From Olleya sp. Hel_I_94 (GTDB lineage Bacteria; Bacteroidota; Bacteroidia; Flavobacteriales; Flavobacteriaceae), in NCBI RefSeq assembly GCF_007827365.1, contig NZ_VISI01000002.1, forward strand, positions 2,299,001 through 2,363,000: a stretch of DNA of 64,000 nt, written 5' to 3'. The translations under genes and the position numbers were made by a program. Shown in pieces: positions 16,402 through 38,994 of this stretch. Within the stretch, counting starts at the first letter, position 1; every line of letters starts with the position of its first letter. A model generated the notes under the pieces. That model ran no database searches. It had not been told where the DNA came from and saw only the letters and a program-made list of their open reading frames with translations.

Positions 16402-16488
16402 TTTGGGCGTTACCACAAGGGTCGCGCTATCCACTAAATCTTTTTTATCGTACCTCAAAAAAGGATACCGTTTCTATCGCTAACGCAG
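16402..16488 (-). repeat. Dispersed extragenic repeat, copy 1
   Basis: Read on the minus strand it begins CTGCGTTAGCG, passes ATCCTTTTTT...AAAAAAGAT, and ends CGCGACCCTTGTGGTAACG then CCCAAA. The same beginning and end recur at 32403-32514. It fills the gap between the Lgt-like and radical SAM genes. Its first bases supply the last codons and the TAG stop of the Lgt-like gene. Confidence 0.8.
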
Positions 16489-17229
16489 GTGTTTTCCAAG
16501 TAAAAGACTAGCAATAAATTTGCTGTAATACAACCAACAAATTACACATAATATTTGGATACTGCTTAAGCCAAAAGTATAAAATACATTAGGTTTTAAA
16601 AACTCGATACAAAATCTAAAACAAAAATAACTTAGCATAAAAAACTTGAATAAATCACCATTTTTTAATCGGAAGGTTTTGTGTATAGTTTTTAAAGCAA
16701 TAAATAATATAGTTAAAAAGACAAGTTCATATAAAGACGTGGGATGACGTAGTAATCCATCACCTAAATCCATTCCAAAAACTGACGTAGTTACTTTACC
16801 ATAAGTAAACTCGTTAATACCAGATAAAAAACAACCAATACGACCAATAAAGATTCCTAAAATTATAGGAAACACAAATAAATCTCCAGACGATTGCTTT
16901 TCGCTAATTATTTTTTTTGCCAATTCTACACCAAGTAAACCGCCAAATAAACCACCCATTATGGTTTTTGTGTTTAGTAATGTAATGGCGTTTTTTAATG
17001 TAAATTCAATTAAAGGATTTTCTAAAAACCCAACCAATCTTGAGCCAATTAAAGCAGCCAAAGCTGCGCCTAAAATAATAGAGAGTCTATTATTGCTACT
17101 AATAACATCAGTACTGCGTTTTCTTAAAAACACATAATATCTATACGCTATAAAAAAGGCGAGATATTCTAATATAAGATGAATATTTATGTTAACGCCA
17201 AAAAGCTCAGGGTTGAAGGGTAGGTCCAA
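16480..17229 (-). CDS. Lgt-like (prolipoprotein diacylglyceryl transferase family) membrane protein
   Basis: The protein has 249 residues and about six or seven membrane helices. It carries the Lgt-type signature GRIGCFLSG at residues 129-137 and RHPTSLYE at 161-168. In true Lgt a His precedes a GG pair, but here the matching place reads MGG (91-93), and the usual N-x-E of the Lgt signature is altered. This therefore looks like an Lgt paralogue rather than the housekeeping enzyme. It may transfer a phospholipid-derived group, substrate unknown. The frame starts at a TTG at 17229, with no in-frame ATG upstream. The gene precedes the Cys-rich radical SAM gene on the same strand. The C-terminus and stop lie inside a dispersed repeat. 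Confidence 0.75.
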   Translation of the reverse strand: MDLPFNPELFGVNINIHLILEYLAFFIAYRYYVFLRKRSTDVISSNNRLSIILGAALAALIGSRLVGFLENPLIEFTLKNAITLLNTKTIMGGLFGGLLGVELAKKIISEKQSSGDLFVFPIILGIFIGRIGCFLSGINEFTYGKVTTSVFGMDLGDGLLRHPTSLYELVFLTILFIALKTIHKTFRLKNGDLFKFFMLSYFCFRFCIEFLKPNVFYTFGLSSIQILCVICWLYYSKFIASLLLGKHLR

Positions 17230-22041: not shown

Positions 22042-22210
22042 TTCACTTTTTTTATTGTCCTCAAGATCTACAAATACTTTTTTATAGAAATTGAATAAAA
22101 TTAAACATCTTGGGTGTCATAATAACACCTGTTTAAAATACTGATTATCAATTATTTAAACTGTTATTTTGTAGCCTGAATTTAGTCTGTGTTTTAAAAA
22201 TAGACTAGGT

Positions 22211-22264
22211 ATGAAATGTCAAACCTCTACTTTAGATTATTATTTAAATAGAAGTAGACCATAA
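22211..22264 (+). promoter_or_regulatory. 17-codon reading frame and hairpin abutting ilvD
   Basis: An ATG at 22211 opens a 17-codon frame whose TAA directly precedes the ilvD ATG in the same frame. Its codons are not enriched in Ile, Leu or Val (two Leu only). Within it TCTACTT and AAGTAGA form a perfect 7-bp inverted pair covering the ilvD ribosome entry region. It may modulate ilvD translation, or it may be chance. Confidence 0.3.
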
Positions 22265-23941
22265 ATGGAATTAAACAAATACAGTAAAACAGTCACTCAA
22301 GATCCAACGCAGCCAGCTGCTCAAGCTATGTTGCACGCTATTGGATTAACTAAAGAAGATTTTTTTAAGCCAATCATTGGTATTGCGAGTACAGGTTACG
22401 AAGGTAATCCTTGTAATATGCATTTAAATGATTTAGCAAAATTGACAAAAGAAGGGACTAAAAACGAGGACATCATTGGTCTTATTTTTAATACTATCGG
22501 TGTTAGTGACGGTATTTCTATGGGGACACCAGGTATGCGCTACTCATTACCATCTCGTGATATTATTGCAGATTCTATGGAAACTGTAGTACAAGCCATG
22601 AGTTATGATGGTTTAATTACGGTAGTAGGTTGTGATAAGAATATGCCAGGTGCATTAATTGCAATGATTAGATTAAATCGTCCTAGTATTTTAGTGTATG
22701 GTGGTACAATAGATTCTGGTTGTCATAACGGACAAAAACTAGATGTCGTCTCTGCTTTTGAAGCTTGGGGAAGCAAAGTTGCTGGAACCATGGAAGAAAC
22801 AGAATACCAAAACATCGTTGAAAAAGCATGTCCAGGAGCAGGAGCATGTGGTGGGATGTACACTGCAAACACAATGGCTTCGGCTATTGAAGCTTTAGGG
22901 ATGACCTTGCCTTTTAACTCGTCTAACCCAGCATTAAGTGATGCTAAAAAAGCCGAATCTATTAAAGCAGGAGAAGCGATGCGTGTGTTGTTAGAAAAAG
23001 ACATCAAGCCATCAGATATTATTACTCGTAAATCTCTTGAAAACGCGGTTAGATTAGTTACTATTTTAGGAGGTTCTACAAATGCAGTGCTTCACTTTTT
23101 AGCAATTGCAAGAGCAGCAGATATTGATTTCACTTTAAAAGATTTTCAAAAAATAAGCGATACTACACCCTTTTTAGCAGATTTAAAACCTAGCGGAAAA
23201 TATTTAATGGAAGATGTACACGCTGTTGGCGGAATTCCTGCAGTATTAAAATATTTATTGAAGAAAGGTTTAATTCATGGGGATTGTTTAACCGTTACAG
23301 GAAAAACAATTGCAGAGAATTTATTGGATGTTGAAGATTTAACTGAAGGTCAAGATGTAATAAAGCCAATTGAAGAGCCAATAAAAATTTCAGGTCATTT
23401 AAGAATGCTTTATGGTAATCTTGCTACCGAAGGTTCTGTTGCTAAAATTACAGGAAAAGAAGGTTTGAGTTTTATCGGAAAAGCAAAAGTATTTGAAGGC
23501 GAATATGCTGTAAATGATGGAATAAGAGACGGATTAGTAGAAAAAGGAGATGTGGTCGTAATAAGATACGAAGGTCCAAAAGGAGGTCCAGGAATGCCAG
23601 AAATGTTAAAACCAACTGCTGCAATCATGGGAGCAGGTTTAGGTAAAGATGTCGCACTAATTACAGATGGACGTTTTTCTGGTGGGACACATGGTTTTGT
23701 TGTTGGACATATTACTCCTGAAGCACAAGAAGGAGGAACTATCGCTTTAGTAAAAGATGGCGATATGATTTCTATTGATGCAGAAACAAACAGTATTGTT
23801 TTGGAAGTGTCTGAAGAAGAACTACAAAAAAGAAGACAATCATGGAAAGCACCAGATTTAAAGTTTAAAAGAGGGGTGTTGTATAAATATGCTAAAACGG
23901 TATCATCAGCATCAAAAGGATGTGTAACGGACGAGTTTTAA
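22265..23941 (+). CDS. ilvD: Dihydroxy-acid dehydratase
   Basis: The 558 residues are the usual IlvD length. Fe-S ligand cysteines are seen in GCDKNMPG and in [16 protein letters not shown], with the signature [12 protein letters not shown] near the C-terminus. It dehydrates 2,3-dihydroxy-isovalerate and -methylvalerate to the 2-keto acids, the third common step of valine and isoleucine synthesis, in the cytoplasm. It heads the ilvDBNCA operon and is followed by ilvB after 29 bp. The 223-bp leader upstream carries two small hairpins (22112-22130 and the TCTACTT/AAGTAGA pair) but no Ile/Leu/Val-rich leader peptide. Confidence 0.97.
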
Positions 23942-27845: not shown

Positions 27846-29114
27846 ATGGAAGAAACCAAAACAACATACAGGCCTACTATAGAAGCTGTTGAGGCTGCTG
27901 CCGAAAAATTAAGAGGAGTTGCTGCTGTAACTCCTTTAATTTCAAACATGAGATATTCAAAGCAATTTGAAGCAAATATCATGTTTAAACGCGAAGACTT
28001 ACAGCAAGTACGTTCCTATAAAATTAGAGGTGCTTACAATAAAATGTCATCTTTAACTCAAGCTGAAGCTAAAAAAGGAATTGTATGTGCAAGCGCTGGA
28101 AACCATGCACAAGGTGTGGCCTTATCTTGTAAATTGTTAAAAATAAAAGGGACTATTTTTATGCCTTCTCCAACACCAAATCAAAAGGTGGAACAGGTTA
28201 AAATGTTTGGAGAAGATTATATAGAGGTGGTTTTAGTGGGCGATACGTTTGATGATGCTTATCATGCAGCAATGGAAGATTGCGAGCGTTTAAACAAAGC
28301 GTTTATTCATCCATTTAATGATAAAAAAGTTATAGAAGGTCAAGCAACGGTTGGTTTAGAGATTATAGATCAAACGGAGTTTCATCCAATAGATTACGTT
28401 TTTGTACCTATTGGAGGTGGTGGTTTGTCTTCAGGTTTATCCTCTGTTTTTAAGTTGTTATCGCCACATACAAAAATTATAGGTGTGGAGCCAAAAGGGG
28501 CACCTTCGATGTTAACATCAATAAGAAATAATAAAAACACCGAGTTAGAAGAGATCGATAGTTTTGTAGATGGTGCTGCGGTTAAACGTGTTGGTGATTT
28601 AAATTTCGCCATTTGTAAAGAGACCTTACATCGTGTGGTTACTGTGGATGAGGGTAAGATTTGCCAAACCATTTTAGATTTATACAATAAAGAAGCGATT
28701 GTAGCAGAACCTGCAGGGGTTTTAAGTTTATCTGCTTTAGAGTATTTTAAAGAAGAAATTAAAGGTAAAAATGTAGTTTGTGTTATAAGCGGAAGTAATA
28801 ATGATATTACGCGTACTGCAGAAATTAAAGAACGCGCGCTATTACATGCCGATTTAAAGCACTATTTTATTGTTAAGTTTCCACAGCGATCTGGAGCATT
28901 AAGAGATTTTGTTGTTGATATTTTAGGTGATACAGATGATATTACTCATTTTGAATACACCAAAAAAGCAAACCGTGAAAATGATGTTGCTGTGGTTGGA
29001 ATTGAGTTAAAATCTCCAAATGACTTAGAGCCTTTAATTACAAAAATGAAGCGTCACAATTTTTATGGAGATTATCTAAATGATAAGCCTGATTTATTTC
29101 AGTTTTTAGTGTGA
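27846..29114 (+). CDS. ilvA: Threonine ammonia-lyase (threonine deaminase)
   Basis: The protein has 422 residues. A PLP fold-type II catalytic domain occupies about 1-330, with the PLP lysine in VRSYKIRGAYNK, the loop SAGNHAQGVAL and the glycine loop PIGGGGLSSGL. A shorter ACT-like regulatory domain follows (HYFIVKFPQRSGALRDFVVD). It converts threonine to 2-ketobutyrate for isoleucine synthesis. The single regulatory module matches the IlvA1 form of about 420 residues, not the 510-residue E. coli type. It is the last gene of the ilv operon. I see no strong terminator before the arginine leader region. Confidence 0.95.
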   Translation: MEETKTTYRPTIEAVEAAAEKLRGVAAVTPLISNMRYSKQFEANIMFKREDLQQVRSYKIRGAYNKMSSLTQAEAKKGIVCASAGNHAQGVALSCKLLKIKGTIFMPSPTPNQKVEQVKMFGEDYIEVVLVGDTFDDAYHAAMEDCERLNKAFIHPFNDKKVIEGQATVGLEIIDQTEFHPIDYVFVPIGGGGLSSGLSSVFKLLSPHTKIIGVEPKGAPSMLTSIRNNKNTELEEIDSFVDGAAVKRVGDLNFAICKETLHRVVTVDEGKICQTILDLYNKEAIVAEPAGVLSLSALEYFKEEIKGKNVVCVISGSNNDITRTAEIKERALLHADLKHYFIVKFPQRSGALRDFVVDILGDTDDITHFEYTKKANRENDVAVVGIELKSPNDLEPLITKMKRHNFYGDYLNDKPDLFQFLV

Positions 29115-29182
29115 TTTTGATAATTATGACCTTAAATACTTTCAAATTCGTAAAAATTCATTAAAAATGACACAAAATAAAC

Positions 29183-29210
29183 TTTTGTATCAAATTAAAT
29201 TATACGTTTG
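29183..29210 (+). promoter_or_regulatory. Candidate promoter of the arginine operon
   Basis: TACGTTTG at 29203-29210 fits the TAnnTTTG -7 element. A TTTTG at 29183-29187 may be the -33 element, although the 15-bp spacing is shorter than usual. Transcription from it would start close to the ATG of the first leader frame (29215), so that frame might be read from a nearly leaderless transcript. Confidence 0.5.
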
Positions 29211-29214
29211 TACC

Positions 29215-29280
29215 ATGTTTACAACACTAAATAAAAACGAAAGACCCACAAGTTTGCTATTACGCAGACGACGTCGCTAA
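29215..29280 (+). CDS. Putative arginine leader peptide 1
   Basis: This 21-codon frame starts with ATG and ends LLLRRRRR then TAA. The last five sense codons are all arginine (CGC AGA CGA CGT CGC), with another Arg at codon 10. It lies 235 bp upstream of the arginine biosynthesis genes and has no database-type family. A run of codons for the end product at the end of a tiny frame ahead of its biosynthetic operon is the hallmark of ribosome-mediated attenuation. A T-rich stretch follows at 29308-29323. CTATTA (29257-29262, the Leu codons) can pair with TAATAG (29304-29309) just before it, a weak terminator-like stem that a ribosome stalled on the Arg run would mask. Confidence 0.72.
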   Translation: MFTTLNKNERPTSLLLRRRRR

Positions 29281-29329
29281 TACGCATACTTCAAGCTTTT
29301 AGTTAATAGTTTTTATTTTTTTTCAGACA

Positions 29330-29425
29330 GTGAACAATTCAACACAAATAGTTTCTTTTTTAAATACAGTTATTAGAAATAATAACAGGATAACCCTACG
29401 TCCAATTTTCCGTCGTCGCCCTTAG
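29330..29425 (+). CDS. Putative arginine leader peptide 2
   Basis: This 31-codon frame opens with GTG at 29330 and ends RPIFRRRP then TAG. Six of its codons are arginine, including CGT CGT CGC at 29411-29419. No ATG precedes it in frame, since a TAG lies at 29300, so a GTG or an internal start must be used. It follows leader 1 by 49 bp and lies 90 bp upstream of the first arg gene. Its 3' end is part of two competing RNA stems (see the next entry). Two Arg-rich frames in one 401-bp gap are unlikely to be chance, but expression is inferred. Confidence 0.6.
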   Translation: MNNSTQIVSFLNTVIRNNNRITLRPIFRRRP

Positions 29426-29452
29426 GGTGTACTTCTATTTATAGAACTAAGG
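29393..29452 (+). promoter_or_regulatory. Mutually exclusive RNA stems over leader 2 (attenuator-like)
   Basis: ACCCTA (29393-29398) can pair with TAGGGT (29423-29428). Alternatively CCTTAG (29420-29425) can pair with CTAAGG (29447-29452), closing an inner perfect hairpin TTCTA-TTTA-TAGAA. The two share bases 29423-29425 and cannot coexist, and the Arg triplet of leader 2 lies between the first pair of arms. No classic T-run follows the second hairpin, so the output could be translation, stability or Rho-dependent rather than an intrinsic terminator. Confidence 0.5.
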
Positions 29453-29515
29453 TGAGTCCGGTTCTGCTTTCAAAAACAAAAATTATCACATTTTTTAATT
29501 TAAAATTCAATTACA

Positions 29516-30145
29516 ATGGAAATTGTTATTGCTGATAAATCGCATAGTATTTACGCAGATATTATTTGTAACACTATTGCTGATGCTGCTCAAGTTAGAG
29601 GAACAGGGATTGCAAAACGCAAGCCTGAATACATTATTACCAAAATGGAAAATGGTAATGCTGTTATTGCTTTAGAGGGCGATAAATTTGCAGGCTTTTG
29701 CTATATCGAACAATGGGGTCATGGTAAATTTGTGGCTAACTCTGGATTAATTGTACATCCAGATTTTAGAAACATGGGCTTAGCTAAACAGATCAAACAG
29801 AAAATATTCGAGCATTCTAGAATCAAGTTTCCGGAGGCTAAAGTATTTAGTATTACTACAGGTTTAGCAGTTATGAAAATGAATAGTGATTTAGGTTATA
29901 AACCTGTTACGTTTTCAGAATTAACAGACGATCAATCCTTTTGGAATGGCTGTCAGACCTGCAAAAATTTTGATGTTTTAACTAGAACAGAGCAAAAAAT
30001 GTGCTTATGTACAGGTATGTTGTATGATCCTTCTAAAAAGGAAGCAGCAAGACCAGCAGCAAATAATCATGATAAAAAAGTATGGACCAGATTGAAAAAT
30101 ATTAAGCAATCCATGTTTCTAAAAAAAGATAAAAATGAAAAATAA
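29516..30145 (+). CDS. GNAT-family N-acyltransferase heading the arginine operon
   Basis: The protein has 209 residues. A GNAT fold at about 1-140 has acyl-CoA-binding motif A in LIVHPDFRNMGLAKQIKQKI. A Cys-rich tail follows (NGCQTCKNFDVL and KMCLCTG) and may bind a metal. It is the first structural gene of the arginine operon and overlaps argG by 11 bp. No ArgA or ArgJ is encoded in this window, so it is the obvious candidate for the first step, N-acylation of glutamate. Bacteroides uses succinylated intermediates in this pathway, so the donor could be succinyl-CoA or acetyl-CoA. This assignment comes from context, not from the motif itself. Confidence 0.8.
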   Translation: MEIVIADKSHSIYADIICNTIADAAQVRGTGIAKRKPEYIITKMENGNAVIALEGDKFAGFCYIEQWGHGKFVANSGLIVHPDFRNMGLAKQIKQKIFEHSRIKFPEAKVFSITTGLAVMKMNSDLGYKPVTFSELTDDQSFWNGCQTCKNFDVLTRTEQKMCLCTGMLYDPSKKEAARPAANNHDKKVWTRLKNIKQSMFLKKDKNEK

Positions 30146-31322
30146 AGGTAAATTAGTCATAGCATATAGTGGTGGATTAGATACATCCTATTGCGCAGTA
30201 AGCTTAAGTAAAGCTGGATACGATGTGCACGCGGTAAGCGTAAATACGGGTGGTTTTTCTGATGAAGAAATTACTGCAATAGAAAAAAACGCTTACAAAA
30301 TGGGTGTGTCAACCTATAAGAACATCGACGCTATTGCATCGTATTATGATAAAGTGATTAAGTATTTAATCTTCGGGAATGTTTTGAAGAACAACACCTA
30401 TCCTTTATCTGTAAGTGCAGAACGTATTATTCAAGCTATCGAAATTATCGAATATGCAAAAAGTATTGATGCCGAATATATCGCACACGGAAGCACAGGA
30501 GCAGGTAACGATCAAGTGCGTTTTGATATGATTTTTCAAACTTTGGCGCCACATATTAAGATTATCACGCCCATTAGAGATGGAAGTTTAAGCAGACAAC
30601 AAGAAATTGATTACTTAAAAGAAAACGGTATCGAAGCGTCTTGGGAAAAGGCAAAGTATTCTGTTAATAAAGGACTTTGGGGAACTAGTGTTGGTGGAGA
30701 AGAAACATTAACATCAGAAAAACCATTACCCGAAAGTGCTTATCCTTCGCAATTAAAACATGCAGACAATGAAAAAGTGACATTAACCTTTTTAACAGGA
30801 GAATTGGTTGCTGTAAACGGAGTTGAAAATGCATCTGACGTAAATATTGAAGTCTTAAACAATCTAGCATCTGCGTATGCAATTGGAAGAGATATACATG
30901 TTGGAGATACTATTGTTGGTATAAAAGGACGTGTTGGTTTTGAAGCTGCAGGTGCTTTGGTTATTATAAAAGCACATCATTTATTAGAAAAGCATACGTT
31001 GACTAAATGGCAATTACAACACAAGGATTATATGTCAAATTTCTACGGAATGCACCTGCATGAAGGGCAATATTTAGATCCTGTAATGCGAGACATGGAA
31101 GCCTTTTTACAAAGCAGCCAAGACAAAGTGTCGGGAGATGTTTTTGTGACCTTAAAACCATACCATTTTACCGTAGACGGAATTAGCTCTAAGCATGATT
31201 TAATGAATGCAAAGTTTGGAAGTTATGGCGAAGAAAATAAAGGTTGGACTGCTGAGGAAGCTAAAGGCTTTATCAAAATAGTTGGTAACCAAAATAAGAT
31301 TTATCAACAAGTAAATAATTAA
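30135..31322 (+). CDS. argG: Argininosuccinate synthase
   Basis: The 395 residues are the normal length. The ATP-pyrophosphatase P-loop reads AYSGGLDTSY near the N-terminus, followed by the family motif HGSTGAGNDQVRFD and the C-terminal LHLHEGQYLDPVMRD-like segment. It joins citrulline and aspartate using ATP. Its start lies inside the end of the GNAT gene (11-bp overlap), so it is coupled to it. A 33-bp palindrome and a start-proximal hairpin separate it from argC. Confidence 0.97.
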   Translation: MKNKGKLVIAYSGGLDTSYCAVSLSKAGYDVHAVSVNTGGFSDEEITAIEKNAYKMGVSTYKNIDAIASYYDKVIKYLIFGNVLKNNTYPLSVSAERIIQAIEIIEYAKSIDAEYIAHGSTGAGNDQVRFDMIFQTLAPHIKIITPIRDGSLSRQQEIDYLKENGIEASWEKAKYSVNKGLWGTSVGGEETLTSEKPLPESAYPSQLKHADNEKVTLTFLTGELVAVNGVENASDVNIEVLNNLASAYAIGRDIHVGDTIVGIKGRVGFEAAGALVIIKAHHLLEKHTLTKWQLQHKDYMSNFYGMHLHEGQYLDPVMRDMEAFLQSSQDKVSGDVFVTLKPYHFTVDGISSKHDLMNAKFGSYGEENKGWTAEEAKGFIKIVGNQNKIYQQVNN

Positions 31323-31329
31323 TTGAATG

Positions 31330-31362
31330 AGACCTGTTAGGTTTTTAAAACCTGACAGGTCT
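31330..31362. repeat. 33-bp palindrome between argG and argC
   Basis: AGACCTGTTAGGTTTT and its inverted partner AAAACCTGACAGGTCT form a near-perfect stem with one mismatched pair. It could act as a transcript stabiliser or partial terminator, or be a REP-type element. Confidence 0.75.
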
Positions 31363-31383
31363 GAAGTTAGTTGAACTAAAATA

Positions 31384-31401
31384 TTCCCATTTTCGAGGGA
31401 A
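31384..31401 (+). promoter_or_regulatory. Hairpin just upstream of the argC start
   Basis: TTCCC and GGGAA pair around an 8-base loop and end six bases before the argC ATG. It is similar in place and sequence to the hairpin ahead of ilvA. Confidence 0.5.
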
Positions 31402-31407
31402 ATAGAT

Positions 31408-32391
31408 ATGAAAAAAATAGAAATAGGAATCATTGGAGGAGCAGGTTATACAGCTGGAGAACTTATTAGATTGTTGTTAAATCACCCAAAAGTAAATATC
31501 AATTTTATTTACAGTACGTCAAATGCTGGTAATAAAATATCTAAAGTACATCAGGATTTAATTGGCAGTACAGATTTGGAGTTTTCAAATCAAATTAACC
31601 CAGAAGTGGATGTGTTGTTTTTGTGTTTAGGTCACGGGAATTCTAAAGCATTTTTAGAGAACAATTCATTTTCTAGTAAAACTAAAATTATTGATTTAAG
31701 TAATGATTTTAGATTAACTAAAGACGCCATTTTTGATGGCAAAACGTTTGTTTATGGTTTGCCGGAATTAAATAAAGAAGCGATTAAAAAAGCGAATTAT
31801 ATTGCAAATCCAGGGTGTTTTGCTTCAGCTATTCAGTTAGCATTATTGCCTTTAGCTAAAGCTGAAGTTTTGCAAAACGATGTACATGTTAATGCGGTTA
31901 CAGGAGCAACAGGAGCAGGAACATCATTATCCGCAACTACGCATTTTACGTGGCGAGATAATAACTTTTCGCATTATAAAGCTTTTACACATCAGCATTT
32001 GGGTGAGATTAATCAATCGGTTAAATTGTTGCAATCTAGCTTTAAGTCAGACATCAACTTTATGCCAAATCGTGGTGATTTTTCAAGAGGGATTTTTGCA
32101 ACTATGTATACTAAGTTTAAAGGAAACTTGGAAGACGCAAAAGCATTGTATAACACGTTTTATAAAGATGCTGCTTTTACTGTGGTTTCGGATGATGAGA
32201 TTCATTTAAAACAAGTGGTAAATACTAATAAGTGTATGCTTCATTTACATAAACATGAAGACAAATTATTGGTGACAAGCATTATTGATAATTTATTAAA
32301 AGGCGCTTCGGGTCAAGCTGTTCAAAACATGAACTTAATGTTTGGTTTTGATGAAACAGAAGGTTTAAAACTGAAAGCAACTTATTTTTAA
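31408..32391 (+). CDS. argC: N-acyl-gamma-glutamyl-phosphate reductase
   Basis: The protein has 327 residues. The NADP-binding motif GGAGYTAGELIRLLLNHP is at the start, the catalytic Cys is in ANPGCFASAIQLAL, and His residues typical of ArgC follow (FTHQHLGEI). It reduces N-acyl-glutamyl phosphate to the semialdehyde, the third step of the acylated ornithine pathway. Neighbouring argD, argB and argE complete the linear route to acyl-citrulline and its deacylation. It is followed by a 298-bp repeat-rich gap before proC. Confidence 0.95.
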   Translation: MKKIEIGIIGGAGYTAGELIRLLLNHPKVNINFIYSTSNAGNKISKVHQDLIGSTDLEFSNQINPEVDVLFLCLGHGNSKAFLENNSFSSKTKIIDLSNDFRLTKDAIFDGKTFVYGLPELNKEAIKKANYIANPGCFASAIQLALLPLAKAEVLQNDVHVNAVTGATGAGTSLSATTHFTWRDNNFSHYKAFTHQHLGEINQSVKLLQSSFKSDINFMPNRGDFSRGIFATMYTKFKGNLEDAKALYNTFYKDAAFTVVSDDEIHLKQVVNTNKCMLHLHKHEDKLLVTSIIDNLLKGASGQAVQNMNLMFGFDETEGLKLKATYF

Positions 32392-32402
32392 AAGTACTGC
32401 AG

Positions 32403-32514
32403 CTGCGTTAGCGGTTGAAGTGGCATCCTTTTTATTTGTCTCCTCGAGCGCAGTCGAGAGGTTGACAAATAAAAAGATATAACGGAAAACGCGACCCTTG
32501 TGGTAACGCCCAAA
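32403..32514 (+). repeat. Dispersed extragenic repeat, copy 2, with nested palindrome
   Basis: It begins CTGCGTTAGCG and ends CGCGACCCTTGTGGTAACG then CCCAAA, the same ends as the copy at 16402-16488. Its middle is replaced by a long inverted repeat (32428-32476): CTTTTTATTTGTC and CCTC on the left, GAGG and GACAAATAAAAAG on the right, around the core GAGCGCAGTCGA. A REP-like core thus sits inside a larger repeat. Confidence 0.75.
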
Positions 32515-32529
32515 TAATAAAAGGATGTC

Positions 32530-32551
32530 ACCTTGAGCGCAGTCGAAAGGT
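32530..32551. repeat. REP-like palindrome, GAGCGCAGTCGA family
   Basis: The core at 32535-32546 is flanked by arms ACCTT and AAGGT. It lies in the argC-proC gap. Confidence 0.75.
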
Positions 32552-32586
32552 CTTAGTAAAAAGAAAGTTTAATTAAAAAGATAATA

Positions 32587-32673
32587 GTCATTGCGAGCTT
32601 TACGAGTGAACGAAGTAAACCTGAAGCAATCTGTTTAAAGAGATTACTTCAGTCATTCTTCTTTCGTAATGAC
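32587..32673. repeat. GTCATTGCGAG-type extragenic repeat
   Basis: It starts GTCATTGCGAG and ends TTCGTAATGAC, an inverted pair, with an inner stem GAAGCAATCT / AGATTACTTC. It runs to 17 bp before the proC start. Its last bases create a spurious in-frame ATG at 32669. Confidence 0.7.
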
Positions 32674-32689
32674 AAAAAAAAACAAACAA

Positions 32690-33490
32690 ATGAAAATAGC
32701 AATTATAGGAACAGGAAACTTAGGAAAGTCCATCGCAAAAGGATTGATAACCAACAATGCCATTACTAGTTTGTATTTAACCAAACGGAATTTGGAAGAC
32801 ATTCAAGAATTTGATGGTTATAAAAATGTGCATTTAACGACGGATAATATTGAAGCTGTAAGGCAATCTGATATCATGATTTTTGCAGTGCAACCAGCGC
32901 ATTTTGAGCAAATATTGAATGACATTAAGCCGGAATTAACAGAGAAACACGTGTTGATTTCGACTATTACAGGTTTTCTAATTCCTAAGATTGAAGCGCA
33001 AGTTGGTGCGGATAAATTTATCATTCGTGCGATGCCAAACACCGCAATTGCAGTTGGTAAATCGATGACCTGTTTGTGTAGTAATGTGCAAGGTGCAAAA
33101 CGCATTAAAATTGCTGAAGCTATTTTTAACAGATTAGGACATTCATTAAGTATTCCAGAAAGTCAAATGCAAGCTGCTACTGTGGTTTGTGCAAGTGGTG
33201 TTGCGTTTTGGATGCGTTTAATTAGAGCAACAACACAGGCTGCTATTCAGTTAGGGTTTGATGCTAAAGAAGCGCAAGAACTAGCGATGTATACCAGCGA
33301 AGGTGCGGCGAGTTTATTGATTACCAACGGGAATCATCCGGAAGAGGAAATAGATCGTGTAACGACGCCAAAAGGGTGTACGATTGAAGGTTTGAATGAG
33401 ATGGAACACAAAGGATTGAGTTCGTCTTTAATACAAGGTATGATTGCCTCGTTTAACAAGATTAGTAACATTAAAGAAGAGCAGATATGA
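32690..33490 (+). CDS. proC: Pyrroline-5-carboxylate reductase
   Basis: The protein has 266 residues starting at the ATG at 32690 (MKIAIIGTGNLGKSIAKGL). The open frame reaches back to an ATG at 32669, but that codon lies in the tail of a repeat element. It has the Rossmann motif GTGNLG, RAMPNTAIAVGKSM, and the ProC C-terminal signature VTTPKGCTIEGLNEME. It reduces pyrroline-5-carboxylate to proline. Its presence inside the arginine operon, sharing a 4-bp overlap with argD, ties proline and arginine supply together. Activity on another imine cannot be excluded. Confidence 0.93.
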   Translation: MKIAIIGTGNLGKSIAKGLITNNAITSLYLTKRNLEDIQEFDGYKNVHLTTDNIEAVRQSDIMIFAVQPAHFEQILNDIKPELTEKHVLISTITGFLIPKIEAQVGADKFIIRAMPNTAIAVGKSMTCLCSNVQGAKRIKIAEAIFNRLGHSLSIPESQMQAATVVCASGVAFWMRLIRATTQAAIQLGFDAKEAQELAMYTSEGAASLLITNGNHPEEEIDRVTTPKGCTIEGLNEMEHKGLSSSLIQGMIASFNKISNIKEEQI

Positions 33491-34617
33491 GTTTATTTAA
33501 CGTGTATCCTTTGTTTGATATCACACCTGTAAAGGGTGTAGATGTTTTTGTTTACGATGAAAACAACACCAAATATTTAGATTTATATGGTGGACATGCC
33601 GTGATTTCTATTGGGCATTCGCACCCAAAATATGTGGCTGCAATTTCTGATCAAGTAGCCAAATTAGGATTTTATAGTAACTCGATTCAGAATCCTTTAC
33701 AAGTCGCTTTGGCTAAAAAATTAATCGCTTTTTCAGGCTGCAAAGATTATGCATTGTTTTTATGTAATTCTGGAGCAGAAGCCAATGAAAATGCTTTAAA
33801 ACTGGCGTCATTTCATAACGAAAAGAAAAAAGTTGTTGCTTTTAAAAATGGGTTTCATGGTCGTACATCAGCAGCTGTTGCAGCAACCGATAATGCGAAG
33901 ATTATAGCACCAATTAACGCACAGCAAGAGGTTGAGATTCTGGCATTAGGTGACATAGAAGGAGTCGAGAAAGCATTGGCTAAAAACGATGTCTGTGCTG
34001 TAATTATTGAATGTATTCAAGGTGTTGGAGGATTAGATGAAAGTACTGCTGCGTTCTACGAAGGTGTAGATGTTTTATGCAAAAAATATAATACGTGTTT
34101 TATTGCAGATGAGGTGCAATCAGGTTTTGGAAGAACTGGAGATTTCTTCGCATTTCAGAAATATAATGTGATACCAGATATTGTTTCGATTGCCAAAGGC
34201 ATGGGGAATGGTTTTCCGATTGGTGGGATTTTAATTCACCCAAATATTAAAGCCTCTTTTGGTTTATTAGGAACCACTTTTGGTGGGAATCACTTGGCAT
34301 GTGTTGCATCTTCGACTGTATTAGAAGTTATTGAAGAAGAGGATTTGATGCAAAATGCTAAAGACGTCTCAGCTTATTTTCTAGAGAAAGCAAAAGAAAT
34401 TTCGGCAATTAAAAACATAAAAGGACGTGGTTTAATGTTAGGATTGGAATTTGATTTTCCGATTGCTGAACTACGTAAAAAGCTAATTTTTGAACATAAG
34501 ATATTTACTGGAAGTGCGAAGAATCCTAATTTATTACGAATTCTTCCGCCTTTAACCATCAAAAAAGAACATGTCGATTTGTTTTTTAAGGCTTTAAAAA
34601 GTGAGTTACAAGGCTAG
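33487..34617 (+). CDS. argD: N-acyl-ornithine aminotransferase
   Basis: The 376 residues belong to PLP-dependent aminotransferase class III. Markers are NSGAEANENALKLA, HGRTSAAVAATD, the Asp of IADEVQSGFGRTG, and the PLP lysine in SIAKGMGNGFPIGG. It transaminates N-acyl-glutamate semialdehyde to N-acyl-ornithine in the acylated pathway. It overlaps proC by 4 bp (ATGA). Related enzymes such as ornithine aminotransferase share the motifs. The operon context decides the call. Confidence 0.93.
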   Translation: MSLFNVYPLFDITPVKGVDVFVYDENNTKYLDLYGGHAVISIGHSHPKYVAAISDQVAKLGFYSNSIQNPLQVALAKKLIAFSGCKDYALFLCNSGAEANENALKLASFHNEKKKVVAFKNGFHGRTSAAVAATDNAKIIAPINAQQEVEILALGDIEGVEKALAKNDVCAVIIECIQGVGGLDESTAAFYEGVDVLCKKYNTCFIADEVQSGFGRTGDFFAFQKYNVIPDIVSIAKGMGNGFPIGGILIHPNIKASFGLLGTTFGGNHLACVASSTVLEVIEEEDLMQNAKDVSAYFLEKAKEISAIKNIKGRGLMLGLEFDFPIAELRKKLIFEHKIFTGSAKNPNLLRILPPLTIKKEHVDLFFKALKSELQG

Positions 34618-34627
34618 CTTGAGTAAC

Positions 34628-34689
34628 GTCATTCTGAACTAGTTTCAGAATCACATAACAGTGAGAAGTTGAAATAAATTCAGTAAGAT
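34628..34689. repeat. GTCATTCTGAA-type extragenic repeat
   Basis: The palindrome ATTCTGAA / TTTCAGAAT is followed by a second half GAAGTTGAAATAAATTCAG. It lies between argD and argF' and is similar to 35644-35717 and 35757-35790. Confidence 0.65.
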
Positions 34690-34704
34690 TAAAGTAATAA
34701 ATAG

Positions 34705-35640
34705 ATGAAAAAGTACACAGGAATAAAAGACATATCAAATCTTCAAGAAACCATAAAGGACGCGATTTTATTAAAAAATAATCCTTTTAAATTCCAAGAT
34801 TTAGGAAAACATAAAACATTAGTGATGCTGTTTTTTAATTCCAGTTTACGAACGCGATTAAGCACGGAGAAAGCTGCAAAAAACCTAGGAATGGATGTGA
34901 TGATTTTAAACGTAAATGACGCCTGGAACTTAGAATTTGAAGATGGTACAATCATGAATGCTAATACGTCAGAACATATTAAAGAAGCAGCACAAGTGAT
35001 TTCGCAATATGGAGATGTAATTGCGGTGAGAGCTTTCCCAAGTTTAACGGATAAGAAAAAAGATGAAAGTGAGTTTGTGATTAACAGCTTTATAAAATAT
35101 GCAACAGTGCCAATTGTAAATATGGAAAGTGCAACAGCGCATCCTTTACAGGCGTTGGCAGATGCAATTACTATTACTGAATTATCAAAAAAAGCGAAAC
35201 CAAAAGTCGTCTTGTCTTGGGCGCCACATCCAAAAGCGTTACCACAAGCAGTTGCTAATTCGTTTGTAGAAATGATGCAAAACTTGGATGTCGATTTAAC
35301 TATTACACATCCTGAAGGTTATGAGTTAAGCGAAGCAATCACAAAAAAAACACCAGTAAATCACAATCAAGAAGAGGCTTTAAAAGATGCCGATTTTGTG
35401 TATGTTAAAAACTGGAGTAATTATAAAGATTACGGAAAAGTACTTAGTCAAGACGAAAATTGGATGATGACAAAAGCGAAGTTGGGTAATGCAAAATTTA
35501 TGCATTGCTTGCCTGTAAGACGTAATGAGGTTGTTGAAGATGCGGTTTTAGATAGTGAACAGTCTGTTGTGATTAAACAAGCTAATAATAGGACTTTTGC
35601 TGCGCAAATTGTCTTGAAACAAATTTTGGGGAAATTTTAA
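34705..35640 (+). CDS. N-acyl-ornithine transcarbamylase (ArgF')
   Basis: The protein has 311 residues. The carbamoyl-phosphate motif is SSLRTRLSTEKAA near residue 50, and the C-terminal Cys loop reads MHCLPVRRNEV. This is the acetyl/succinyl-ornithine branch rather than ordinary OTCase, which has SxRTR followed by a different context and a shorter amino-acid-binding loop. The founding Bacteroides fragilis enzyme acts on N-succinyl-ornithine. Which acyl group is used here is not visible. It makes N-acyl-citrulline, later freed by the M20 enzyme downstream. Palindromic repeats flank it on both sides. Confidence 0.92.
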   Translation: MKKYTGIKDISNLQETIKDAILLKNNPFKFQDLGKHKTLVMLFFNSSLRTRLSTEKAAKNLGMDVMILNVNDAWNLEFEDGTIMNANTSEHIKEAAQVISQYGDVIAVRAFPSLTDKKKDESEFVINSFIKYATVPIVNMESATAHPLQALADAITITELSKKAKPKVVLSWAPHPKALPQAVANSFVEMMQNLDVDLTITHPEGYELSEAITKKTPVNHNQEEALKDADFVYVKNWSNYKDYGKVLSQDENWMMTKAKLGNAKFMHCLPVRRNEVVEDAVLDSEQSVVIKQANNRTFAAQIVLKQILGKF

Positions 35641-35643
35641 TGT

Positions 35644-35717
35644 TACGTCATGCTGAGTTTATTTCAGTATCACACAATTAGTAAATAATGAGAAACTGAA
35701 ACAAGTTCAGCTTGACG
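35644..35717. repeat. GTCATGCTGA-type extragenic repeat
   Basis: GTCATGCTGAGTTTATTTCAG at the left is answered by CTGAAACAAGTTCAGCTTGAC at the right, a long inverted pair with mismatches. It begins three bases after the argF' stop. Confidence 0.7.
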
Positions 35718-35756
35718 ATTGAGGTTTTAAAGTAAGCAATAAGTTAATGTTAATCC

Positions 35757-35790
35757 GTCACGTCATACTGAATTCATTTTAGTATCACAT
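35757..35790. repeat. Truncated copy of the GTCATGCTGA-type repeat
   Basis: GTCATACTGAATTCATTTTAG with a following AGTATCACATC matches the left half of the previous element only. It lies 17 bp before argB. Confidence 0.6.
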
Positions 35791-35806
35791 CAAAAGAAGA
35801 ATAAGC

Positions 35807-36583
35807 ATGAAAACACTAAAAATCATAAAAATTGGAGGAAACATCATCGATGATGATAACGCTTTGCAGCAATTCCTAAAAGCATTTGCGACTATAGATG
35901 CTCCTAAAATCCTAGTGCATGGTGGTGGTAAATTAGCAACTAAATTAGCGCGACAAATGCAAGTTGAGGTTAAAATGATTGACGGAAGACGCGTAACCGA
36001 TCAAGTCACTTTAGATATTATTACAATGGTGTATGCTGGAAAAATCAATAAAACTATAGTCGCACAATTACAAGCTAACAGTTGTAATGCTATTGGTTTT
36101 TCAGGAGCAGATGGCAACACGATAGTTTCGGATTTAAGACCATCTAAACCTATCGATTATGGATTTGCTGGAGACGTCAAAAAGGTAAATACAGAAACCT
36201 TAGAAATTCTATTAAACAGTTCAATTACACCTGTATTTTGCGCGATTACTCATGATAAAAACGGACAATTATTAAATACCAATGCAGATACGATTGCTTC
36301 TGAATTAGCAATAGGTTTTGCAACAAAATATAAAACTGAATTATATTATTGCTTCGAAAAAAAGGGCGTTTTAGAAGATGTAAATAATGACGATTCTGTT
36401 ATTCAAAATATAAACACCAAAAGCTATCAACCGTTGATTGAAAATGGTATTATATATGAAGGCATGCTGCCAAAATTAAACAACTGTTTTCATGCTGTAA
36501 ATAATCAAGTTCAAAAAGTTTGTATTGGTAAATCAGAAATGCTTTTCGATAAAAATAATAAACACACAACCATTTCAAAATGA
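35807..36583 (+). CDS. argB: N-acyl-glutamate kinase
   Basis: The 258 residues belong to the amino-acid kinase fold. KIGGNIIDDDNALQ at the start and LVHGGGKLATKLARQ hold the ATP and substrate glycine loops, with GFSGADGNTI and NTNADTIASELA further on. It phosphorylates N-acetyl- or N-succinyl-glutamate, the second step of the pathway. It lacks a long N-terminal helix of the kind used by arginine-inhibited hexameric forms, which hints that flux control is not at this enzyme (inference). It overlaps argE by 4 bp. Confidence 0.95.
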   Translation: MKTLKIIKIGGNIIDDDNALQQFLKAFATIDAPKILVHGGGKLATKLARQMQVEVKMIDGRRVTDQVTLDIITMVYAGKINKTIVAQLQANSCNAIGFSGADGNTIVSDLRPSKPIDYGFAGDVKKVNTETLEILLNSSITPVFCAITHDKNGQLLNTNADTIASELAIGFATKYKTELYYCFEKKGVLEDVNNDDSVIQNINTKSYQPLIENGIIYEGMLPKLNNCFHAVNNQVQKVCIGKSEMLFDKNNKHTTISK

Positions 36584-37641
36584 TAGAAAAACTAACAACA
36601 AGAGCAATTGCTTTATTAAAACAATTGATAGAAACGCAGTCGTTTTCTTCAGAAGAAGGACCAACAGCAGCACATATTGAGCAATGGTTTAACAATCAAA
36701 ATATTCCTTTTAAAAGAACCAATCATAATGTTTGGGCAACCAATAAATATTTTGACGAGAGCAAACCAACACTGTTGTTAAACTCACATCACGATACGGT
36801 AAAACCAAATAATGGGTACACCAAAGATCCGTTTATAGCCATTGTTGAAGACGGAAAATTATATGGTTTAGGTAGTAATGATGCTGGAGGTTGTTTGGTG
36901 AGTTTGTTAGCAACGTTTGCTTATTTCTATAGCAGAGAAAATCTAAATTTTAATCTGGTTATTGTCGCTTCCGCTGAAGAAGAAAGCAGTGGAGAAAATG
37001 GGTTAAATAGTATGTTGTCAATAATTCCAAAAGTGGATGTCGCTATTGTTGGAGAACCAACATTGATGAATATGGCTGTTGCTGAAAAAGGCTTAGTCGT
37101 GTTTGATGCAGTTGTAAAAGGTACGCCAAGTCATGCTGCGCATCCAAATCACGATAACGCCATTTATAAAACAATTCCAGTTTTAGAATGGTTTAAAAAT
37201 TACACGTTCGACAAGACGTCAGAAGCTTTGGGAGATGTAAAGATGACTGTTACGCAAATAAATGCAGGAAAGCAGCATAATGCGGTTCCCGCAGATGTGA
37301 AACTAGTGGTTGATGTCCGTGTAAACGATAAATATTCTAACCAAGACATTGTCGATATTTTGCAGAAAGAAGCGCCATGTGATAGTATTATTCCGCGTAG
37401 TATAAAATTAAATTCATCGTCCATTCCAATCGATCATCCATTGGTAATTGCGGGAATAGAAATTGGTAGAAGCACCTATGGCTCGCCAACCTTATCGGAT
37501 CAAGCGGTGTTGAGTTGTCCTTCTTTAAAATTAGGGCCAGGAGATAGCACGCGGTCACATTCTGCTGACGAGTTTATTTACGTGAATGAGATTGAAGAAG
37601 GGATTAAGATATATATTGGATTATTAGAAAAAGTATTGTAA
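36580..37641 (+). CDS. argE: M20-family deacylase (N-acyl-citrulline/ornithine deacylase)
   Basis: The protein has 353 residues. The M20 metal stations are visible: NSHHDTVKPNNGY, GLGSNDAGGCLVS, ASAEEESSGENG (catalytic Glu and metal Glu), and VAIVGEPT. A dimerisation domain lies between (GTPSHAAHPNHDNAIYKT). In this operon, which uses an ArgF'-type transcarbamylase, its natural substrate should be N-acetyl- or N-succinyl-citrulline, releasing citrulline for argG. It starts within the argB stop (ATGA). Two opposed REP-like palindromes follow before argH. Confidence 0.92.
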   Translation: MIEKLTTRAIALLKQLIETQSFSSEEGPTAAHIEQWFNNQNIPFKRTNHNVWATNKYFDESKPTLLLNSHHDTVKPNNGYTKDPFIAIVEDGKLYGLGSNDAGGCLVSLLATFAYFYSRENLNFNLVIVASAEEESSGENGLNSMLSIIPKVDVAIVGEPTLMNMAVAEKGLVVFDAVVKGTPSHAAHPNHDNAIYKTIPVLEWFKNYTFDKTSEALGDVKMTVTQINAGKQHNAVPADVKLVVDVRVNDKYSNQDIVDILQKEAPCDSIIPRSIKLNSSSIPIDHPLVIAGIEIGRSTYGSPTLSDQAVLSCPSLKLGPGDSTRSHSADEFIYVNEIEEGIKIYIGLLEKVL

Positions 37642-37645
37642 TGTC

Positions 37646-37701
37646 AGGTCGAGCGCAGTCGAGACCTATTAGTATTAAAGACCTCTCGACTGCGCTCGAG
37701 G
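37646..37701. repeat. Opposed pair of GAGCGCAGTCGA palindromes
   Basis: One copy (core 37651-37662, arms AGGTC/GACCT) and an inverted copy (core 37686-37697, arms CCTC/GAGG) stand head to head between argE and argH. Together they could fold as one long stem. Confidence 0.8.
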
Positions 37702-37719
37702 AGACAAAAAAATCAAATT

Positions 37720-38994
37720 ATGAAACTCTGGGACAAAGGAATAAGTATCGATAAAAAAATAGAACAATTTACCGTTGGAAACGATAGAGAGATTGATTTA
37801 CATATTGCAAAGTACGATGTGCAAGCGTCTTTAGCGCATGCAATAATGTTGGAGTCTATAGGCATTATTTCTTCGGAAGAATTACAACAGCTTAAAATTG
37901 GTTTACACGCTATTGCGGAAACTATAGAAAACGGAACCTTTGTTATTGAAGCGTCCTTTGAAGATGTGCATTCTAAAATTGAATATGAATTGACTAAAAG
38001 CTTAGGCGATGTCGGCAAGAAAATCCATACCGCACGTTCTAGAAACGATCAAGTTTTAGTAGCGCTTCAATTGTATTACAAGGAGAATTTAAAAGAAATT
38101 AATACGAAGACAAAAACGTTTTTTGATACCCTTTTAGGTTTGGCGGAAACGCATAAAGATGCATTACTTCCTGGTTATACACATTTACAAGTAGCAATGC
38201 CATCTTCTTTCGGATTATGGTTTTCTGCTTATGCTGAGGTTTTAATTGATGATGTATACTTGCTAAATGCAGCCTTGAAAACCGTAGATCAAAATCCGTT
38301 AGGTTCTGCAGCGGGTTACGGAAGTTCGTTTCCTATTGATCGAGAATTAACGACTAAAGAATTAAACTTTTCAACCTTGAAATATAATGTCGTTGCTGCA
38401 CAAATGAGTAGAGGAAAAAGCGAACGAACTATCGCTTTAGCTTTAGGAAGTGTGTGTAATACATTAGCGCGTTTTGCAATGGATATTTGCGTGTATAATA
38501 GTCAGAATTTTGGCTTTATAGCCTTTCCGGATGAGCTAACGACAGGAAGTAGCATTATGCCACATAAAAAGAATCCAGATGTGTTTGAATTGATTAGAGG
38601 TAAAGCCAATAAAATTCAAGCTTTGCATGCCGAAATGGTGTTAATTACGAATAATTTACCAAGTGGTTACCATAGAGATTTTCAGTTATTAAAAGAAAAT
38701 ATTATTGCAGCAATTGAAGATGTAAAAGACTTATTAGATATTTTTAATTACGCTATTCAGCAAGTTATTGTAAAAGACATCGATTTAAATGATGCTAAGT
38801 ATCAATACTTATTTACAGTAGATAATATTAATACATTGGTTGTGGGAGGTATGCCTTTTAGAGAAGCGTATCAAAAAATTGGAGGCGAAGTGGAAAGTGG
38901 AACTTATGTGCCAGATACCTCTAAAAAACACACGCATGTTGGTAGTATTGGTAATTTGTGTTTGGATGGGGTTAGAGGCAAGTATCCTGAGTAA
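37720..38994 (+). CDS. argH: Argininosuccinate lyase
   Basis: The protein has 424 residues. The fumarase/aspartase superfamily signature GSSIMPHKKNPDVFELIRGK is complete, with the earlier conserved DVHSKIEYELTKSLGDVG and HTARSRNDQV. It splits argininosuccinate to arginine and fumarate, the final step. It is slightly shorter than the usual 450-460 residues at the C-terminus but no motif is missing. It is the last gene of the operon, with another pair of REP-like palindromes after it instead of a clear intrinsic terminator. Confidence 0.95.
   Translation: MKLWDKGISIDKKIEQFTVGNDREIDLHIAKYDVQASLAHAIMLESIGIISSEELQQLKIGLHAIAETIENGTFVIEASFEDVHSKIEYELTKSLGDVGKKIHTARSRNDQVLVALQLYYKENLKEINTKTKTFFDTLLGLAETHKDALLPGYTHLQVAMPSSFGLWFSAYAEVLIDDVYLLNAALKTVDQNPLGSAAGYGSSFPIDRELTTKELNFSTLKYNVVAAQMSRGKSERTIALALGSVCNTLARFAMDICVYNSQNFGFIAFPDELTTGSSIMPHKKNPDVFELIRGKANKIQALHAEMVLITNNLPSGYHRDFQLLKENIIAAIEDVKDLLDIFNYAIQQVIVKDIDLNDAKYQYLFTVDNINTLVVGGMPFREAYQKIGGEVESGTYVPDTSKKHTHVGSIGNLCLDGVRGKYPE

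Follow-up and report, generated by a model that had tools for sequence, protein, structure and literature searches.

A candidate two-frame arginine leader before the arginine operon of Olleya and other Flavobacteriaceae

The attenuators of the trp, his, leu and ilv operons have in common a short frame with repeated cognate codons, placed before the matching biosynthetic operon, and an RNA that folds over this frame. The Bacteroid-trp motif is linked to the trp operon and to Trp codons. It has been described as a cis-regulatory RNA of Bacteroidetes (RF01692; PMC2864571). 'Strong clues' for leader-peptide attenuation before amino-acid biosynthesis operons have been reported from Flavobacterium psychrophilum (PMC9723704), and leader-peptide-like frames have been noted in Bacteroides (PMC7366714). 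Leaders that sense arginine are known as well: the frame rbfL of Staphylococcus aureus responds to arginine shortage via its Arg codons (PMC13009471), and in the orf34/speF leader of Salmonella consecutive Arg codons tune mRNA folding according to arginine, with Rho involved (PMC6386406). Among the matches listed in a search of open-licence PubMed Central titles and opening abstracts, no attenuator of an arginine operon was found for Bacteroidota.

The region studied here, upstream of the arginine operon of Olleya sp. Hel_I_94, resembles the trp, his, leu and ilv systems in having short frames with cognate codons before the matching operon and an RNA that is predicted to fold over them. Unlike these, it has tandem frames, a first frame that is probably nearly leaderless, no mutually exclusive terminator and antiterminator that we could find, and arginine as its amino acid. 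The account from F. psychrophilum concerns the same family; its passages on the subject name no arginine leader, tandem frames or element like the P1-P2 element below. The Bacteroid-trp motif, likewise a Bacteroidetes cis-regulatory RNA, belongs to another amino acid, and our region has no Rfam match. As summarized in its report, rbfL differs in having 8 codons and in acting on a biofilm regulator, whose ribosome-binding site it blocks and whose expression it lowers when arginine is scarce, while orf34/speF, as outlined by its authors, differs in its target, an ornithine decarboxylase gene, in its single frame, and in its conserved peptide domain and RNase G.

We analysed a window of 64,000 nucleotides, to which all coordinates refer. 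The whole region before the operon is read here, with a rough probability of 0.72, as a two-frame, ribosome-mediated leader of the attenuator type that would control the arginine operon, because it combines Arg-rich frames, a promoter-like box and covarying helices that enclose or overlap the frames. Its parts are:

29203..29210, + strand: Bacteroidota-type -7 promoter box TACGTTTG (TAnnTTTR survey and consensus of PMC9723704)
29215..29280, + strand: uORF1, an Arg-tailed leader frame, MFTTLNKNERPTSLLLRRRRR and stop (reading of the open frame, family comparison)
29229..29238, + strand: 5' arm of helix P0, AAATAAAAAC, within uORF1 (matched versus mismatched duplex test)
29309..29318, + strand: 3' arm of helix P0, GTTTTTATTT, part of a T-rich tract just 5' of uORF2 (duplex test and scan)
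29330..29425, + strand: uORF2, a second Arg-rich leader frame with a GTG start, VNNSTQIVSFLNTVIRNNNRITLRPIFRRRP and stop (openness, NTG start, Arg excess)
29369..29386, + strand: hairpin Pm within uORF2, GTTATTA-GAAA-TAATAAC (covariation scan, z -10.6)
29417..29429, + strand: hairpin P1, CGCCC-TTA-GGGTG, its loop overlapped by the uORF2 stop and followed by a T-rich spacer (loose terminator pattern, alignment)
29442..29466, + strand: hairpin P2, TAGAACTAAGGTGAGTCCGGTTCTG, with the conserved top GGTGNGTCC (covariation, covariance model R1)
29516..38994, + strand: arginine operon of GNAT, argG, argC, proC, argD, argF', argB, argE-like and argH (NCBIfam, Pfam)

uORF1 runs for 21 codons from the ATG at 29215 to the TAA at 29278-29280 and ends CGC AGA CGA CGT CGC TAA, 235 bp before the start of the GNAT gene. 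A preliminary description of this DNA had reported the frame with its five terminal Arg codons, directly before a nine-gene arginine operon, and both points are borne out, the first by the sequence reading and the second by gene identification. As a leader, the frame is real but only one part of a larger conserved one, of which uORF2 and the P1-P2 element had been missed. The comparison proposed at that time, of GNAT-upstream regions across Flavobacteriaceae, has now been made: a short frame, either uORF1 or uORF2, whose last 9 residues include 3 or more Arg is present in 114 of 115 regions, against 11/115 on the reverse strand and 41/1150 mononucleotide shuffles. These regions, among which near relatives are over-represented, comprise 35 first loci and 80 from the top of the list of GNAT matches, some second members of genera having been skipped; of 397 genomes of the family 266 have a GNAT match, as do 7 of 10 of the genus, and the 131 family genomes without one were left out.

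A search anchored on the promoter, which ignores the peptide, found an ATG 3-8 nt past a TAnnTTTR box in 81 of the 115 regions, and 80 of these 81 frames carry at least 2 Arg in their last 9 residues. Across 77 uORF1s the tails contain 319 Arg among 770 codons in frame, compared with 19 and 32 of 693 in the other frames; since these uORF1s were picked for Arg the in-frame count is biased, a choice of which the promoter-anchored 80/81 is free. By strict patterns, uORF1 occurs in 62 of 80 named loci (one of which, L225, is probably a uORF2 instead), P1-P2 in 65 and both in 50, and the genera with uORF1 include Olleya, Lacinutrix, Gelidibacter, Nonlabens, Polaribacter, Kordia and Tenacibaculum. 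In 68 of 77 genomes the 20 nt ahead of the uORF1 start contain a TAnnTTTR box, compared with 47 of 1540 random 20-nt windows further upstream, and the flavobacterial -7 box is given as TAnnTTTG (F. psychrophilum; PMC9723704). Because the -7 box TACGTTTG stands just before the ATG, transcription probably begins at or beside this codon, leaving the message leaderless or nearly so. Such a start would be unusual by the measure of F. psychrophilum, where leaderless messages make up 5.5% of those examined (PMC9723704).

The second frame, uORF2, ends in RPIFRRRP. In all 77 two-frame regions the 28 codons before P1 are open in the uORF2 frame (12 and 1 regions for the other frames), and all 77 have an NTG start in this frame 33-57 nt past the uORF1 stop (3 and 1 for the others). 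P1-P2 and uORF2 statistics were taken from the 103 of 115 regions that match a P2 pattern, the other 12 being dropped; an in-frame NTG start lies ahead of P1 in 103/103, and the frame stops at P1 in 93 and continues beyond the P1 loop in 10. As the frame was defined by a CGC anchor codon in P1, 103 of 425 counted Arg are there by construction; without the anchor, the 11 codons before it hold 322 Arg among 1133, whereas the other frames reach 32 and 22 of 1133. The contrast is weaker in the 26 regions without a uORF1 that passes the filter, where the uORF2 frame is open in 21, as opposed to 2 and 7 for the other frames; at least 2 of these 26 (G353, G033) do hold a frame ending in KRRS. Seven of the 26 have a promoter-like box no more than 45 nt from an in-frame uORF2 start (7 nt only in G180, G386 and G395), whereas TAnnTTTG precedes uORF2 in 0 of 77 tandem regions. 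For this reason uORF2 with P1-P2 looks like the core of the leader, to which uORF1 with P0 would have been added as a further stage.

In the tails, codon choice is not neutral. Of the 319 tail Arg codons in the 77 uORF1s, 224 are CGC, as are 92 of 322 in the uORF2 tails (anchor excluded); in 41 long frames of the window CGC stands at 7% of Arg codons and AGA at 47%. The tail of the Olleya uORF1 is more mixed than those of the family. The earlier view that selection acts on the amino acid and not on the codon thus holds for its first half, Arg being kept; the over-use of CGC, by contrast, indicates that codon choice or base pairing is also under selection. The synonymous share is 0.301 against 0.239 expected in uORF1 and 0.253 against 0.215 in uORF2, so that the peptides appear weakly constrained, and the Arg positions in uORF1 tails vary (RRRRR, RSRRRF, LRRRCA), which together suggest that the Arg codons matter more than the peptide. 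Such weak constraint is as expected if the function lies mainly in the Arg codons; as evidence that the frames are translated at all, on the other hand, it is weak.

Helices were tested by comparing the pairing energy of segments from the same genome with that of segments from different genomes, with permutation, on sets of regions from which similar ones had been removed (36 regions for P0, 42 in the scan, 25 for P2 and 8 for P1); the resulting z values serve as guides rather than as probabilities, since related sequences are not independent. For P0 the matched energy is -11.86 kcal/mol against -8.12 kcal/mol for mismatched segments, a value reached by 0 of 2000 permutations (n=36), while two control pairings gave z +0.6 and +0.8. 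Compensation is visible, for example, where ATATAGAGT is paired with ACTCTATAT (G054) and AAATAATATTA with TAATATTATTT (G274). In the covariation scan of 1523 window pairs over 42 genomes, 22 pairs fell below z -4, of which 16 belong to P0, 2 to Pm, 3 to P2 and 1 is unexplained; Pm gave the strongest signal. The unexplained one, a faint helix between the uORF2 start and about -36 of GNAT (z -4.1), may be noise, as 5 window pairs exceed z +4. The stretch from uORF1 to the uORF2 start of the Olleya sequence itself, with P0, folds better than its shuffles (z -2.33, reached by 4/200); for the whole leader the effect is modest (z -1.87).

The T-rich stretch and the CTATTA/TAATAG pair to which the preliminary description had pointed are both present, at 29310-29323 and at 29257-29262 with 29304-29309, respectively. 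The T-rich tract lies in the conserved P0, where its partner is the A-rich codons 5-8 of uORF1, but the CTATTA/TAATAG pair is not kept; as a hairpin it is found in the five nearest genomes and lost in G001, G004, G177 and G302. The ribosome-mediated attenuation proposed there has gained a conserved Arg leader with the T-rich tract in a helix, but not a competing antiterminator: mutually exclusive helices of the trp type appeared in none of the 1523 window pairs, in a scan that detects helices varying between genomes and for which P1 is too short-range.

Chance frames over DNA that is conserved for another reason, as a transcription-factor or antisense feature, would be a scarcely credible alternative. 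Relatives without the leader that carry a AGATAAAATATCT-like palindrome before GNAT (by eye) do indicate that other kinds of control exist, and yet the frame-specific Arg excess and openness, the promoter box at the ATG and the covarying helices would then all have to be accidental.

In the P1-P2 alignment of 99 sequences (97 distinct), 7 of 12 pairs changed on both sides, and 0 of 500 shuffles reached the observed values; this alignment is fitted to the model and leans towards structure. P2 contributes 5 of its 7 pairs and has a matched versus mismatched z of -7.3 (n=25), although part of its conservation comes from selection, the regions having been chosen with a P2 pattern (103/115). P1 contributes 2 of its 5 pairs, with 91.9% of cells paired in the same model-fitted alignment; in the permutation test on P1 alone, 260 of 2000 permutations reach the observed value (n=8). 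Folding of the Olleya sequence compared with shuffles is unusual neither for P1-P2 (z -0.68) nor for uORF2 to P2 (z -0.87). In some of the dropped regions, G126, G264 and G285 among them, the top begins with TGGTG.

Covariance model R1, which covers P1-P2, matches 99 of 100 GNAT-upstream loci drawn from the 115, 63 pieces of the loci searched having also built the model. In the Olleya genome, whose copy is in the model, there is one convincing match (E 1.9e-18; the next, 0.14). Matches with E < 1e-9 number 16 in 246 genomes of the order and 15 in 345 of the phylum, all within the family, in a search whose filters lose weak matches and whose family genomes were drawn largely from genus g128; the best match outside the family has E 4e-4. 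Weak matches in g128 and outside the family (E 4e-4 to 1e-2) were taken as chance, one of them (L138 of g128) lying in a coding region by eye. No covariance model of Rfam, such as Bacteroid-trp or Flavo-1, has a gathering match in the leader, the sole sub-threshold hit being an sRNA match on the other strand at 29162-29211 (E 0.36). Two further pairings were rejected: a Shine-Dalgarno-like role of AGGUG in the P2 top, since AGATG..TTC variants retain the hairpin and break complementarity to the 16S end, and a helix between the 5' arm of P1 and the P2 top, which CGCAC variants of P1 and GATG variants of P2 break without compensation.

P1-P2 could itself be the sensor or recognition RNA, as an arginine aptamer or as an antitermination element to which RNA polymerase or a protein binds, with uORF2 mainly gating its folding. 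Terminators seldom conserve loop sequence. P2 nonetheless retains its top GGTGNGTCC beyond pairing, P1 and P2 are 12-15 nt apart in 99 of 102 regions, and the element also occurs in the 26 of 103 regions without a uORF1 that passes the filter. We consider this explanation unlikely all the same, because the element, with 12 modelled pairs, would be a small aptamer and has no Rfam counterpart, the Arg excess of uORF2 would need another cause, and the conservation of P2 partly reflects how the regions were selected.

Arrest of the ribosome by the nascent peptide at the uORF2 end, RRP-stop, after the manner of TnaC or SpeFL, must likewise be weighed, since RRP or RP stands at the P1 hairpin in most of the 103 uORF2s, and E. 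coli TnaC, too, has RP at its end. The final Pro, however, tracks P1 pairing: it is replaced by Thr where P1 has the compensated CGCAC/GTGCG (G274, G309, G317), and with the frames that run on past the P1 loop (10/103) this explains the RRP ending by P1. No conserved peptide was found and peptide constraint is weak, so that we rejected an arrest-peptide leader as very unlikely.

Under the favoured two-frame arginine leader, ribosomes short of charged arginyl-tRNA would stall at the Arg codons of both frames, and these stalled, perhaps queued, ribosomes would decide the folding of P0, which contains the sequence just before the uORF2 start, and of Pm and P1, which flank the uORF2 Arg codons. 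The folding state would set the level at which the nine genes are transcribed or translated; with ample arginine, ribosomes would finish and leave, the folds would form and the operon would be turned down. The last step could lie in termination at P1 with the T-rich spacer, in Rho, in an antitermination element or in how accessible a start codon is.

Modelled ribosome footprints fit this scheme in part. A stall on the CGY-CGC pair is predicted to remove P1 (from 3.29 to 0 expected pairs), and one where the Arg codons of the uORF2 tail begin to remove most of Pm (8.42 to 1.73) with P1 intact. P1 surviving there does not fit a simple rule by which the stall prevents a terminator. A ribosome on the uORF1 Arg tail would change P0 from 17.9 pairs to 14.2 at the first tail Arg and 18.6 at the last; together with one queued behind it, it may cover the P0 arm. 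As P0 is barely affected, P1 survives the first-Arg stall, and the P2 top and spacing are fixed, no simple terminator model is claimed.

Plain intrinsic attenuation, in which stalled ribosomes simply cover two weak terminators, one formed by P0 and its T-rich arm and the other by P1 and the T-rich spacer behind it, is nevertheless a possibility to be taken seriously, if not one that we favour. On the two strands of 29000-29700 a loose pattern picks out P1 as the sole terminator-like site (1 found, 0.3 expected), and the P1-P2 spacer has 56% T against a background of 35%. Such terminators would be poor ones, given interrupted T tracts, a P1 of 5 pairs and an A/U-rich P0 with a long loop; P2, beyond the T tract, would be left unexplained, and most of P0 and P1 survives modelled stalls on the uORF1 tail or at the first Arg codons of uORF2. 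More speculative, and in our estimate improbable, is that P1-P2 forms a new RNA antitermination or other trans-factor-binding element gated by Arg stalling in uORF2, with uORF1 and P0 as a second gate upstream. Were this true, Flavobacteriaceae would sense arginine by two serial ribosome checkpoints and not by ArgR. The leader also provides a defined RNA for experiments in a phylum where messages are described as without Shine-Dalgarno sequences (PMC6847099).

ArgR (PF01316) was found neither in the Olleya genome nor in any of the 149 family genomes searched, whereas the same search found it in 9 of 14 control genomes, one of them a Bacteroides; control of the operon by ArgR was rejected on these grounds, and a leader-based arginine sensor would fill a real gap. 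The proposed leader, whose Arg codons would take the place of ArgR in Flavobacteriaceae, is thus a concrete candidate for the control of arginine synthesis in a large family of marine bacteria. The first gene of the operon is a GNAT acetyltransferase by Pfam only, with no NCBIfam match. For the others the best NCBIfam models are argG, argC, proC, argD, N-acetylornithine carbamoyltransferase, argB, an ArgE/DapE-type deacylase and argH, the curated cut-off being reached by argC, proC, the carbamoyltransferase, argB and argH and missed by argG, argD and the deacylase.

Two Rfam Flavo-1 RNAs lie in the window, at 32397-32500 (+) and 16416-16489 (-); the former is inside the arginine operon, in the gap between argC and proC, and is followed by more repeat-like sequence. 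By eye, no Ile/Val/Leu-rich leader was seen before the ilv operon of the window (22210-22265). A frame MKCQTSTLDYYLNRSRP, translated by eye, stands just 5' of the dehydratase gene.

Relatives show other arrangements before GNAT. Among 12 genomes of genus g128 (Flavobacteriaceae), 9 carry another leader; neither kind is present in G463 and G447, and in G608 there is only a diverged Arg-tailed frame. The leader in the nine (L249-L257) is a conserved MNKISLHITSLSRTNSPITSPEVRTLSL-type that begins about 332 bp before the GNAT match and has two CGG Arg codons and a TACTTTTG box immediately 5' of its ATG; CGG being the rarest Arg codon in the window frames (0.7% of Arg codons), it is perhaps a rare-codon form of the same idea. 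At L262-L265, some GNAT genes that have no Arg leader are seen by eye to have AGATAAAATATCT-like palindromes before them, within about 200 bp; these are perhaps the operator of some regulator. Several genomes (G517, G598, G603) have a second GNAT copy.

Outside the family, an Arg-tailed frame is present in 26 of 40 regions, a hand-picked spread of matches, compared with 6/40 on the reverse strand and 125/800 shuffles, a rate by which some of the 26 are chance. Within family f37, from another class of the phylum, all 9 genomes examined have an Arg-tailed leader, for example MQKSLAHRIDRRSVRRIPRRR. As such leaders precede the same GNAT gene in other families, f37 among them, arginine leaders may be common in Bacteroidota. 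The Arg-tailed leaders of f37 (L291, L294, L297, L298, L299, L302 and L258-L260), which are like MQKSLAHRIERPTTRRIPRRR, end about 108-138 bp 5' of the GNAT match.
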